Positions 37,535 through 42,998 of a stretch of 47,138 bases of DNA are shown piece after piece. The notes under the pieces were generated by a model. It worked only from the letters and a program-made list of their open reading frames with translations. It had not been told where the DNA came from and made no database searches. This DNA comes from Bacteroidota bacterium (GTDB taxonomy: Bacteria > Bacteroidota > Bacteroidia > B-17B0 > Aurantibacillaceae): positions 1 to 47,138 of the forward strand of contig CANLAV010000005.1 of assembly GCA_947487905.1 (NCBI GenBank), written 5' to 3'. The position numbers were made by a program, and so were the translations under genes. Each line of letters opens with the position of its first letter. Position 1 is the first letter of the stretch.

Positions 37535-38152
37535 TTAAAGATTTGTTGGGATTAAACATTTAGGAATAAACCAGTTATTATTATATAAGCTTAGATTAAT
37601 GGCTTCGTTTTCGCAAGAAACATAGTTTTTTTGTTCGTTTCGCATCAAATACCAAGCCTTTCCAAGATGAATTTGTTTAATAACAATATTTGCTAAAGAA
37701 TCTGGTTCAAAGCAAGTTAAGGCTTTTTTTAGTTCAAATCCCACCTCGTTATTTCTTAAATCCATGATACACGATAAACTATCCGGTCTTTCACTAAATT
37801 CTAACTGATGTTTAATAAACTGATGATAGTTCCCTTTTTCGTGTGCAATGCCTAATTTTCTTAGCTTTTCTTCCTTTACATAGTTGATTAAATAAGCCAT
37901 AAAATAAACATGACGAAAAGCATCCATTTTTCCGCCATTTTCTAGTGTATCTAACACTTTACTCTGTTTAACCAATTCATAGTTTCGCATGACCATAGGC
38001 CATTCTTTTTTAATCTTACACGCTGATATTGGATATTTAAAAGCCCATAAAACCTCGTATTTAGAAATCCTCTTTTGAGAAAAAACAAACGTTTGAAAAA
38101 AAATCATGCTGAATACACAAACAATAGTTTTAATATAAATTGATTTTAACAT
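37535..38152 (-). CDS. exported DUF6973-like protein
   Basis: A 205-residue protein with a signal peptide (about 1-25, ending FVFSQ). The body contains GGKMDAFRHVYFMAYLI, KLGIAHEKGNYHQF and PDSLSCIMDLRNNEVGFEL. I recognise these as the DUF6973 pattern (a DAFRHxYWMA helix, an AHEKGN motif and an MDLxNNxVG motif), found in exported Bacteroidota proteins. The invariant His, Asp and Asn residues hint at a hydrolase-like site, but no activity is established. It is a single gene, divergent from the gene at 38220. Confidence 0.8.
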   Translation of the reverse strand: MLKSIYIKTIVCVFSMIFFQTFVFSQKRISKYEVLWAFKYPISACKIKKEWPMVMRNYELVKQSKVLDTLENGGKMDAFRHVYFMAYLINYVKEEKLRKLGIAHEKGNYHQFIKHQLEFSERPDSLSCIMDLRNNEVGFELKKALTCFEPDSLANIVIKQIHLGKAWYLMRNEQKNYVSCENEAINLSLYNNNWFIPKCLIPTNL

Positions 38153-39685: not shown

Positions 39686-40102
39686 ATGAAAAAAATAATT
39701 TTAGTATTAGGCTTAGCCTTCAGTATCAACTTCAGCGCAAACGCTAGTAAGTACAAATTAACAGATGTTCAATTAGAACAAAATTTTAAAGTTAGTCAAG
39801 AAGTTAGCTTCGAAGAAATGTACAGTGCTGATTTAACAGCATTAAATTTATCTGGAAGCAAAATGTCTGCCTCTAGCAGCCAAACAAGAACTGGATATTT
39901 ATTACGTTCATTTTTCTGTGGTTCGATTGCTTTGCACCGTTATTACATGGGAACTGAAAAGAATTATATGTGGGCGCTTTATTTCTGTGTTCCAGTAGTT
40001 GGTGAAGTTGCTGGTTTTGTAGACTTTTTCTGGGTTTTATTTGATAAAGACGCCATGAGCAAATACTCAAATAATGACAAATACCTTGTTTTTTTAGACT
40101 AA
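39686..40102 (+). CDS. exported TM2 domain protein
   Basis: A 138-residue protein: signal peptide (1-20, ending NASA-like SANAS), a polar linker (21-66), then a TM2 domain (about 67-122) with two helices and the motif IALHRYYMGTEKNY followed by PVVGEVAGFVDFFWVLFD. The GxxGxHRFYxG-type motif is the hallmark of TM2. In Bacteroidota such genes encode small inner-membrane proteins with no established role. Its strong promoter suggests high expression. Confidence 0.88.
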   Translation: MKKIILVLGLAFSINFSANASKYKLTDVQLEQNFKVSQEVSFEEMYSADLTALNLSGSKMSASSSQTRTGYLLRSFFCGSIALHRYYMGTEKNYMWALYFCVPVVGEVAGFVDFFWVLFDKDAMSKYSNNDKYLVFLD

Positions 40103-40120: not shown

Positions 40121-40149
40121 AAAATACCGACTTTAAGTCGGTTTTTTTT
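40121..40149. terminator. bidirectional terminator between the TM2 gene and the YidD/TPR operon
   Basis: CCGACTTTAAGTCGG (40127-40141) forms a compact GC-containing stem with T8 on the plus side and, on the minus strand, TATTTTAATTTTTTT after the hairpin. It ends the TM2 gene and, on the other strand, follows the last stop codon of the four-gene operon (40148-40150). Confidence 0.85.
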
Positions 40150-41032
40150 ATGGAATAAATTGTTGCTTAATTCTGAGCTTTAAATCTTGATTAAATGATT
40201 TTGCAATCGTGTAATTGTACTTTTCTGCCAAAAACTCTGAACGTTTAATACCTCCTAAATAAAATTTACCTAACAGCATATTGCCCGTTGCAATCCCAGT
40301 AAAATAAAACTGGAACACAATACCAACCGCCATAATACCAACACTTGAAGCGACAGAAATAAAAGAAGCTATCCCTTCCCCATAATTCTTAGTATAACAT
40401 TGGCCTAAACCAGGAATAAGCGATGACATTTTTATTGCTTTACTAGCACTTTTCAATTTTGGTAATTGGTTCATAGCATACATTCCATCAATCTCTTTTC
40501 TAACTCTTTTATATAAAACGGAGTCATTTTTATGCAGTCTAGAATTAAGCATTAAAAGTTTTTCTTTTGCAGCTTGCCATTTATATTGCTCGTTCAAATT
40601 TAATGCTTGAAGTATCCATGATTTACTAGTATAATTAGAATCAGACACTAAATAATTGAGTTGATTTAAATATACCTCAACTTGTAAAAAATCATTTTTT
40701 AAATAATTAAGCAAAGCGCATTGATATTTAACCTCATAAATCAAGGAATCATGAACATCATTTAAACTTATAGCGTTGAGTATATTAATCGCATTATCAT
40801 ATTGCTTTAAAATTTTATTTGCATTAGCGGCCGATAACTTTGCTTTGTTTTTTTCATTTTCTCCAATTAAAAAAAAATCTAATTTTTGATAATAAACAGA
40901 AGCTTCAAAATAGTTGCCCACAATAAATAGGCTGTCAGCAAACTGCTTCAGTTTTAAAGTATCATTGTTTGCGTAAGTAAGTCTACTTAAAAAAACGAAT
41001 AATAGGCACGTGAATACTCGCAAGAATTTCAT
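40148..41032 (-). CDS. exported TPR protein with C-terminal PGLGQxY membrane domain
   Basis: A 294-residue protein: signal peptide (about 1-21, ending LTYA), helical repeat region (about 25-185) resembling tetratricopeptides (NYFEASVYYQKL, QYDNAINILNAI), then LIPGLGQCYTKNYGEGIASF (205-224) and two hydrophobic helices. The P-G-x-G-Q-x-Y plus following helices is a membrane domain recurrent in proteins encoded next to YidD-like genes. The first 50 nt overlap the end of the preceding gene, and the signal peptide is encoded within that overlap, so the start is secure. It is a paralogue in layout of the gene before it. Function unknown. Confidence 0.85.
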   Translation of the reverse strand: MKFLRVFTCLLFVFLSRLTYANNDTLKLKQFADSLFIVGNYFEASVYYQKLDFFLIGENEKNKAKLSAANANKILKQYDNAINILNAISLNDVHDSLIYEVKYQCALLNYLKNDFLQVEVYLNQLNYLVSDSNYTSKSWILQALNLNEQYKWQAAKEKLLMLNSRLHKNDSVLYKRVRKEIDGMYAMNQLPKLKSASKAIKMSSLIPGLGQCYTKNYGEGIASFISVASSVGIMAVGIVFQFYFTGIATGNMLLGKFYLGGIKRSEFLAEKYNYTIAKSFNQDLKLRIKQQFIP

Positions 41033-41840
41033 TATTTATTTTTCCGTTAGATGATTTGATTTGTTGTTGCACACTGAAATAACTACCTAAAATATTACCT
41101 GCATAAAAAAATGTAAATAAAGTTCCAAATGTTATGACTTGAGGACTCTTAATGTTTTTTGTTCTGTAATAAGACTCAACTACCATTAAGCCGAGCGCTG
41201 TAGTAGTTGCAAAACTTGCAATGGCTGCTCCCTTTTTTCCTGCATAAAATTTACCCAAGCCAGGCACAACCGATGATAATAAAGCCGCTTTTATAGGTGA
41301 TTTACTATAATTCTTTCTAGCTCTAATAGACAATTCTTTCAGTCTCATTTGCTCATTTGTTAATCGAAAATCATCGTATCGAAATGTATTGCATAAGCTG
41401 TCAAATTTTTCATATTTCCTTAACAATAAATAATTCCCAGCCTTCATCGTATTAAAAACATGGCGATACATAAATGCCGTATCCATACAAAAGTCATCAA
41501 ACTTACCTAGTGCTATTGAATGTTTCTTAGCATAAAGTAAATTTAAAATTTCAAAACTTTTTGCCTTACTGAACAAATTACTAATTGCACTAACTTTTGA
41601 AAGCATAACGGCAGCAGTATCTACTTTCTTCATTAAATAATAATTATACCCCTTTAAAAAATTAAGCGTATCTGTATTTTTAATTTCATTTGGTTGGTTT
41701 AATAAAAAAAGTGCTTCTCTATTTTTTTCGTTCTGTAATAAATAATTTATAAACACATAATTTTGATTTATCTGCGCTATCATGCTAGTCGCATTAAAAA
41801 AAGCAAATTGAATAGCTGAAAAATAGACTAGTAATTTCAT
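40983..41840 (-). CDS. exported TPR protein with C-terminal PGLGKxY membrane domain
   Basis: A 285-residue protein with the same layout as its downstream neighbour: signal peptide (about 1-22), helical-repeat region (about 25-180) and a C-terminal membrane domain opening with SSVVPGLGKFYAGKKGAAIA (189-208) followed by hydrophobic helices (about 205-225 and 238-255). It overlaps the YidD-like gene by 4 bp (ATGA) and the next gene by 50 bp, so the operon is tightly coupled. The two paralogous proteins probably sit in the same membrane or complex. Function unknown. Confidence 0.85.
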   Translation of the reverse strand: MKLLVYFSAIQFAFFNATSMIAQINQNYVFINYLLQNEKNREALFLLNQPNEIKNTDTLNFLKGYNYYLMKKVDTAAVMLSKVSAISNLFSKAKSFEILNLLYAKKHSIALGKFDDFCMDTAFMYRHVFNTMKAGNYLLLRKYEKFDSLCNTFRYDDFRLTNEQMRLKELSIRARKNYSKSPIKAALLSSVVPGLGKFYAGKKGAAIASFATTTALGLMVVESYYRTKNIKSPQVITFGTLFTFFYAGNILGSYFSVQQQIKSSNGKINNEILASIHVPIIRFFK

Positions 41841-42331
41841 GGCTTTTTATTTTTCTGATAATCAGAAGGTTTATCGTAAATTTTATTCGTTCGCGAATTA
41901 TAGTCAACGCCTTCAACCATGTCAATCCCTGCTAACTTAGTACAACGGGTCAAGCGATCAGCCGTTAATGGTATGCCTTTAAATATGCCGTACTTTTGGA
42001 TGCATTGCTTACTAAACTGACTACAATTGACTTCGTAGGGACAAGCCGCACCTATTTGAACTGAAATTGTTTTTTGATATAAAAACAACAAGCCTCCAAA
42101 AAATAAAGATACTGGATTGTATTTTACGACCGCATGTTTGCCTTCAAATAGATAAGTGACCTTTCGCTTAGATTCGTATTCAGATTTGTAATTAACAGCT
42201 CCGAAAAGTAAATCGTTATCTAATTTCGCTTGCGCTTTTAATTGACTCAAACTTGTGAGGAAAAAAAACGAAATTAAAAACTTATTTAATATTAATAATT
42301 TTTGCATTTTTCGGAATTTTAAAATCGACAA
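41837..42331 (-). CDS. YidD-like protein with signal peptide
   Basis: A 164-residue protein. Residues 72-135 match the YidD family: NPVSLFFGGLLFLYQKTIS, then GAACPYEVNCSQFSKQCIQKYG and GIPLTADRLTRC, with cysteines 97, 103, 110 and 130. Unlike the usual 70-100 residue cytoplasmic YidD, residues 10-34 look like a signal peptide ending LKAQA, so the YidD domain would be exported. The first in-frame ATG is at 42331; an ATG at 42307 gives a shorter n-region and is equally likely. It overlaps the LolA-like gene (26 or 50 bp) and the next gene by 4 bp. I infer a periplasmic role in a four-gene module, not YidC-linked insertion. Confidence 0.82.
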   Translation of the reverse strand: MSILKFRKMQKLLILNKFLISFFFLTSLSQLKAQAKLDNDLLFGAVNYKSEYESKRKVTYLFEGKHAVVKYNPVSLFFGGLLFLYQKTISVQIGAACPYEVNCSQFSKQCIQKYGIFKGIPLTADRLTRCTKLAGIDMVEGVDYNSRTNKIYDKPSDYQKNKKP

Positions 42332-42998
42332 AATTTGACTTTACAGCTTCATTTGTTTTAGGATTACTATACGTTTTTGTAGTGATAATGGAATCTCCTT
42401 TTTCGATATATGCAAACTCATTGATTTGAAGGGGAAGATATAGTTTTCCGATTTTCGTATAATTTGAAAAATAAATTTTTCCTAATTTTTTATTCTTAGC
42501 GCCAATAAATTCAAGGTAAACAGGCAAACTCTTTTCGTGAACTAATTCAATTTTTAAAACAGAAGTTTGAAGTCCGCTCTTTGGAACCCATGTGGTAACA
42601 AAAAAACCTTCATCCGTTTTTGTCTCTTTGATAACATAGCCAATTTTAGGTAAGCCTAAATCGTTATACCTTCCATTTAAGAAAAACCAAAAGTAACTAG
42701 ATTCAGAAGATGAAAGAGCTGAACTTGATTGAGAAAAAGAGTTTTCTTTAAAATCATAATTTGTTACATCTCCATTTGCATCAATCATAGTGACACTTTC
42801 AAAAGGAGCAACTAAATGGGTTGTAAGAACACTTCCTGATTTTTTAAAATAAACTTCGCCCGATATATTGATGTACTTACTTTTTTTTAAAATACGCGAT
42901 TTAAAATCTAAACTTAATTGACTAACATCAGAAACTGCTTGGGAAAAACAAGTATTGACCAAACAAATAAAAAAAAACGTTTTATAAAAACACTGCAT
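42282..42998 (-). CDS. exported LolA-like protein
   Basis: A 238-residue protein with a signal peptide (about 1-19, ending CFSQ). The mature part is a run of beta-strands: INISGEVYFKKSGSVLTTHLV, PFESVTMIDANGDVTNYDF, then KIELVHEKSLPVYLEFIGA and KLGKIYFSNYTKIGKLYLP. This alternation and the APFE-x-x-T segment resemble LolA/LolB lipoprotein carriers and DUF-like periplasmic carriers, but similarity is weak by eye and no lipobox is present. First gene of the overlapping operon. A carrier for a lipid or hydrophobic ligand is my inference. Confidence 0.72.
   Translation of the reverse strand: MQCFYKTFFFICLVNTCFSQAVSDVSQLSLDFKSRILKKSKYINISGEVYFKKSGSVLTTHLVAPFESVTMIDANGDVTNYDFKENSFSQSSSALSSSESSYFWFFLNGRYNDLGLPKIGYVIKETKTDEGFFVTTWVPKSGLQTSVLKIELVHEKSLPVYLEFIGAKNKKLGKIYFSNYTKIGKLYLPLQINEFAYIEKGDSIITTKTYSNPKTNEAVKSNFVDFKIPKNAKIINIK

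Follow-up and report, generated by a model that had tools for sequence, protein, structure and literature searches.

A four-gene operon that encodes an exported member of the YidD family, here called exoYidD, occupies positions 40148–42998 on the minus strand of the 47,138-nucleotide stretch analysed (the window), which corresponds to contig C5 in a fragmented Bacteroidota assembly of 2.4 Mb. Together with the two TPR proteins encoded behind it, P1 and P2, exoYidD constitutes a conserved system whose occurrence across Bacteroidota is well supported: in a scan that covered 84,980 species by one genome each and was tuned to close relatives, exoYidD, P1 and P2 were found in the same order and on the same strand, with P1 and P2 overlapping, in 48 of 48 loci, all of them from Bacteroidota. 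We class the operon as a YidD-type insertion aid within an undescribed system, because a role in membrane protein insertion has been described for YidD and an exported YidD operon was not found in the open-access literature. Tentatively, and with less than even confidence, we propose that this aid acts at the periplasmic face and serves exported proteins bearing hydrophobic hairpins, possibly for the outer membrane.

The operon and its proteins

ORF calling placed the genes in the order LolA-like, exoYidD, P1 and P2, and the end-to-end overlaps described in an earlier note were found again on the minus strand. The gene of the LolA-like exported protein (238 aa, 42282–42998) overlaps that of exoYidD (156 aa, 41837–42307) by 26 bp if exoYidD is read from the ATG at 42307, and by 50 bp if it is read from an alternative upstream TTG present in the sequence at 42331. 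ExoYidD and P1 (285 aa, 40983–41840) share 4 bp (ATGA), a junction typical of translational coupling, and P1 overlaps P2 (294 aa, 40148–41032) by 50 bp. A fifth gene, outside the four-gene set first described, lies at 39686–40102 on the plus strand, convergent to the operon. It encodes a small exported TM2-type hairpin protein of 138 aa that is likely a partner or client of the operon. Each of the four operon proteins begins with the kind of hydrophobic stretch seen in signal peptides; throughout, hydropathy rather than a trained predictor was the basis for recognising signal peptides and hairpins. Wherever dS could be estimated, which was the case for the LolA-like protein, P1, P2 and the small TM2 protein, dN was lower than dS; for exoYidD dS was saturated. 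The operon showed no match to anti-phage defence models or to plasmids, and matches in phages were short and corresponded, where annotated, to a canonical yidD beside rnpA. Near the operon the window also encodes an exported DUF6973 protein (37535–38152), for which no recurrence was noted.

YidD is nearly universal in bacteria. ExoYidD scored above the cut-offs of both family profiles, PF01809 (51.8 bits, cut-off 27) and TIGR00278 (61.2 bits, cut-off 40). In comparison with YidD of E. coli and canonical YidD of Bacteroidota the conserved core of Y, IS, C-x5-C-S, G and R-C is present. Loss of the conserved residues on alignment had been named earlier as a refuting outcome; exoYidD has retained C-x5-C-S as well as Y, S and G. 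Y77, C89 and C95 are invariant among 74 aligned sequences; the codons of the two cysteines are located at 42041–42043 and 42023–42025. A third cysteine, common to exoYidD and canonical YidD, is missing in an Ignavibacteria-like group of exoYidD. The signal peptide claimed for this homologue agrees with its N-terminal hydrophobic segment, and Q26 is near-invariant in the alignments. A peak of hydropathy at residues 59–77 lies just ahead of the YidD core.

The repeats of P1 are TPRs as judged by a profile search against PDB chains (alignment A9, E 6.8e-27), and they appear as helix pairs in a structural model of P1 alone, which is all-helical (pLDDT 95.3). The C-terminal membrane part is marked by PGLG-x-x-Y and F-Y-x-x-N-I-x-G-S; the PGLGKFY motif of P1 is encoded at 41244–41264, and P193, G194 and G196 are invariant in the alignment. 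P2 clusters with P1 as its paralogue and has the same layout, with the PGLGxxY motif and membrane segments found in both, so that the architecture first attributed to the two downstream proteins (signal-like segment, TPR repeats, PGLG membrane domain) is borne out. A Foldseek search with the P1 model returned only weak TPR matches, and the PGLG domain could be assigned to none of the known folds. Both proteins remained below the Pfam cut-offs for DUF5683 (15.2–18 bits, cut-off 26.7) and TM2 (15.5 bits, cut-off 27.9). In a tree, P1 and P2 fall into two cleanly divided clades of 37 and 38 sequences (support 0.96), and their duplication is therefore older than the split of the sampled classes.

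The first gene had been taken to encode a periplasmic carrier, which is consistent with the signal-like N-terminus and the predicted structure of its product. Of the two profile searches proposed beforehand, the one for YidD gave a match above cut-off, whereas the LolA-like protein of the window stayed below the PF17131 cut-off (13.6 bits, cut-off 30, E 0.05) although its fold is clear. PF17131 was matched by 23 of 36 relatives with E values of up to 0.1 (best 1.1e-6). The AlphaFold2 model (pLDDT 93.5) resembles P. gingivalis LolB (Z 16.2, rmsd 3.5 over 199 residues), P. gingivalis LolA3 (Z 15.0, rmsd 3.4 over 190 residues) and LolA 2w7q (E 1.6e-11), and according to this model the protein is of the LolA half-barrel fold. 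LolA and LolB variants have been described for Bacteroidota, some of them in flexirubin loci and with no mention of YidD (PMC11885536, PMC13103446). In F. johnsoniae LolA2 and LolB2 belong to a flexirubin operon and are suspected of a role in transport of a lipid or pigment type; the bacterium is viable without its LolA and LolB proteins, and another lipoprotein route is therefore expected (PMC11885536).

The genome of the window contains three YidD genes: a canonical one of 75 aa (contig C20), exoYidD of the window and a second exported copy (contig C31). The latter has a P1 and a P2 of its own behind it, and the module is thus duplicated within the genome. This second cassette (L052:2300-8714, G000:C31) also holds divergent genes for a trypsin-like peptidase protein, an outer-membrane-protein-like protein and a hairpin protein of about 575 aa. 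A separate LolA_2 protein is encoded on contig C13; the LolA-like gene of the operon is therefore not the sole carrier of the LolA fold.

Recurrence across Bacteroidota

The earlier note had named recurrence of the neighbourhood beyond close relatives as the test on which an undescribed envelope system would stand or fall. The trio of exoYidD, P1 and P2 recurs across classes of Bacteroidota, and the operon was not found in the literature covered; the proposal is thereby supported. A search for exoYidD detected a long exported YidD, distinct from canonical YidD, in about 30 of 100 relatives. Clustering of the neighbouring genes showed P1 and P2 right after exoYidD in 19 of 21 loci (20 fetched loci and that of the window). 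The scan of 84,980 species used a profile of the closer exoYidD subset (A7); a 22-sequence alignment across classes offered no sufficiently conserved stretch. With a P1 profile run over 296 Bacteroidota genomes, strong matches came mostly from other classes, and the loci fetched keep the order exoYidD-P1-P2. About 40 further loci, other classes of Bacteroidota included, carry the trio in this order. Most of the genomes compared are MAGs.

The arrangement varies in some loci. At L097:5599-6801 exoYidD and a PGLG protein are fused in one ORF of 400 aa with a GTG start, and L099, L102 and L103 have a single PGLG gene. Two exoYidD genes (L044:7939-8364 and L049:7899-8339) were seen without a clear adjoining P1/P2 pair. 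In another class (L084-L094) the trio is situated between acyl-CoA dehydrogenase-like or RlmN-like genes and DUF59-, LemA- and TPM-like genes, all named by reading their sequences; LemA and TPM could be functionally linked to the trio.

The LolA-like gene is the less constant member. It lies directly upstream of exoYidD in 34 of the 48 loci of the scan (one genome per species) and is absent from many exoYidD operons. Among the 100 relatives it occurs in 12, each time beside an exoYidD gene.

Partner genes and proposed function

The neighbours of the operon vary, and most of them encode exported proteins with a hydrophobic hairpin. Small proteins of 130–180 aa with a signal peptide and a hairpin were found beside 32 of the 39 operons that have the LolA-like gene and beside none of the 40 that lack it, counts that depend on flank length and on our own tabulation. 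They belong to two families, each following one exoYidD subtype. The first is of TM2 type (alignment A12), flanks LolA-bearing operons, includes the product of 39686–40102 and often comprises several divergent paralogues. The second (PPLGIPSFLWGC...) is found with a second exoYidD subtype (SSQD...C); in L229, L232, L233 and L234 its gene lies immediately upstream of the operon and is read in the same direction. Paralogue expansions of hairpin genes amount to 2–6 copies per locus. Divergent exported TM2-type expansions, with up to about six genes per locus, surround the operon in L115, L120, L121, L122, L129 and L139. The window protein lies below the TM2 cut-off of Pfam (20.3, cut-off 27.9), and its homologue in L100 above it (40.2). 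In the 100 relatives strong TM2-family matches were confined to six operon genomes, two of them with unlinked genes (G087 and G089), and to G030, which has no operon. No hairpin gene was found near seven LolA-bearing loci, of which G087 and G089 have one elsewhere in the genome, and no obvious hairpin client was seen in the Ignavibacteria-like operons. Ordinary TM2 proteins are present in most genomes without exoYidD, and hairpins as such therefore do not need the machine. The small hairpin proteins could also be subunits rather than clients. Crude predictors gave a general excess of exported hairpin-like ORFs in the flanks of about two-fold only, on which we did not rely.

LolA-less operons of one subtype, including the cassette on C31, adjoin an outer-membrane-protein-like gene and a gene for an exported protein of about 570 aa (A14). 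Full-length A14 matches occurred in 13 of 100 genomes, all 13 of them with exoYidD. A C-terminal hydrophobic hairpin, scored where the last 90 residues included 19 or more in succession without a charge, was present in 11 of 49 A14 homologues, and all 11 came from genomes that have exoYidD; 31 of the 38 hairpin-less homologues came from genomes lacking it. Fisher's test of this association gave about 1e-6 (computed on 37 rather than 38 hairpin-less homologues), a value to be read with the caution that related genomes are not independent. Ten of the 11 hairpin-bearing proteins are close relatives of one another and share a hydrophobic insert, usually with two cysteines, ahead of a conserved G-x-G-x-G-x-I-like end, where the other homologues have a short polar strand. 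Since the partner with the hairpin is largely one orthologous, co-located cassette, few independent events are represented, and the cassette may have been inherited or transferred as a block.

Other neighbours were found with single subtypes or loci. PEGA lipoproteins with a hydrophobic hairpin adjoin the operons in L095, L097, L102 and L234. Probable lipoproteins whose C-terminal region is long and hydrophobic are encoded near operons at L039:12721-13374, L040:2854-3522, L042:3326-3976 and L115:2993-3631. One subtype has a DedA/VTT-family gene directly or closely upstream of exoYidD (L034, L039, L040, L041, L126, L132, L137 and L138), the VTT domain being confirmed by Pfam in L039 only. The DedA/VTT family includes lipid flippases or scramblases.

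Judged by the partner genes that vary between operons, the hydrophobic cargo would be exported proteins that carry a hydrophobic hairpin. From gene order, co-occurrence, domain content, conserved residues and predicted folds we infer a complex, client insertion and a role for the LolA-like protein, in which the four genes would make up one envelope machine built on the exported YidD domain. ExoYidD, P1 and P2 would form one complex, the TPR/PGLG pair holding exoYidD at the periplasmic membrane face and the TPRs of P1 and P2 recruiting clients. Hairpin-bearing exported proteins, in the window the putative TM2-type client encoded at 39686–40102, would be helped to enter or stay in a membrane after crossing the inner membrane. 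Where present, the LolA-like protein might shield the hairpin, or carry the client or a lipid across the periplasm. The conserved cysteines of exoYidD and of many client hairpins may indicate a disulfide step, which is a guess only. Because LolA-bearing operons encode a protein with a predicted LolA fold, delivery to the outer membrane is suggested, and the outer membrane is a plausible target.

We consider it unlikely that the system instead moves a lipid, a pigment or another small hydrophobic compound, with the LolA-like protein acting as carrier and the hairpin proteins serving as the parts in the membrane. The LolA fold would suit such a task, as would the DedA/VTT gene adjoining several operons and the precedent of LolA2/LolB2 in the flexirubin operon of F. 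johnsoniae (PMC11885536), but the LolA-like gene is dispensable, being missing from many operons, and no recurring lipid or pigment biosynthetic enzymes were seen beside the operon. Somewhat more doubtful is a general insertion helper without dedicated clients at the periplasmic side of the inner-membrane Sec/YidC site. Its patchy distribution, in about 30 of 100 relatives, and the exchange of partner genes between operon subtypes point to dedicated clients, even though the hydrophobic segment at residues 59–77 just before the YidD core and the role reported for E. coli YidD (PMC8082313, PMC3573977) would both be in keeping with it. We give still less credence to a specialised lipoprotein sorting in which certain lipoproteins would reach the outer membrane or the cell surface by way of the LolA-like protein and the exoYidD complex: most LolA-associated partners resemble proteins with a type I signal peptide and have no lipobox, against which stand the LolA fold, the additional route implied by survival of F. 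johnsoniae without LolA and LolB (PMC11885536) and the lipoproteins adjoining several operons, which have a PEGA domain or end in a hydrophobic segment. A structural or sensing complex, with hairpin proteins as permanent subunits and exoYidD as a disulfide-stabilised scaffold, is the least probable reading, as core subunits are not usually replaced by unrelated families or multiplied into paralogues in the way the partners are, the tight operon with a co-directional small protein and the invariant cysteine pair of exoYidD notwithstanding.

Relation to known systems

The favoured reading, a YidD-type insertion aid for hairpin-bearing exported proteins, would extend a function reported from the other side of the inner membrane. 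To our knowledge there is no known machine for placing hairpin-shaped exported proteins into a membrane, and no paper on an exported YidD or the exoYidD operon was found in the open-access literature searched. A YidD version across the inner membrane that keeps its cysteine pair and comes with partners and candidate clients offers a tractable route to the function of the YidD domain. If the clients are indeed helical hairpins for the outer membrane, the operon would represent a pathway by which outer-membrane proteins are made independently of BAM and Lol. Such a dedicated post-translocational route, placing alpha-helical hairpin proteins in the outer membrane of Bacteroidota by an exoYidD and TPR/PGLG insertion complex with a LolA-fold chaperone, is in its full form improbable at present.

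E. coli YidD has been reported to aid membrane protein insertion together with Sec/YidC (Yu et al. 2011, as cited in PMC8082313 and PMC3573977). The core of exoYidD is homologous to YidD (PF01809, TIGR00278) and has the same C-x5-C-S motif, Y, S, G and R-C pair, but the C-terminal GG-x-DPVP tail is replaced in the alignment. Canonical YidD is a protein of about 70–85 aa on the cytoplasmic side (about 70–95 aa in the search of the 100 relatives) and lacks a signal peptide, whereas exoYidD is exported and, with its N-terminal extension, measures 156 aa. Unlike in the rnpA-yidD-yidC arrangement of E. coli, its gene is not located beside rnpA or yidC and is instead surrounded by those of the LolA-like protein, P1 and P2; a canonical YidD is retained separately in the genome. 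The LolA-like protein shares the fold of the LolA/LolB superfamily, as predicted, and a type I signal peptide with LolA, but differs in its identity of 10–14%, in the score of the window copy below the Pfam cut-off and in its tie to the exoYidD operon. P1 and P2 carry a PGLGxxYxG-type motif and two hydrophobic segments like TM2 and DUF5683, for which no described bacterial function was found in the open-access literature, yet they score under the respective Pfam cut-offs. Like CpoB/YbgF and BamD they are exported envelope proteins with TPR repeats, but here the TPRs are joined in one protein with a PGLG membrane domain at the C-terminus, and each protein is paired with a paralogue.
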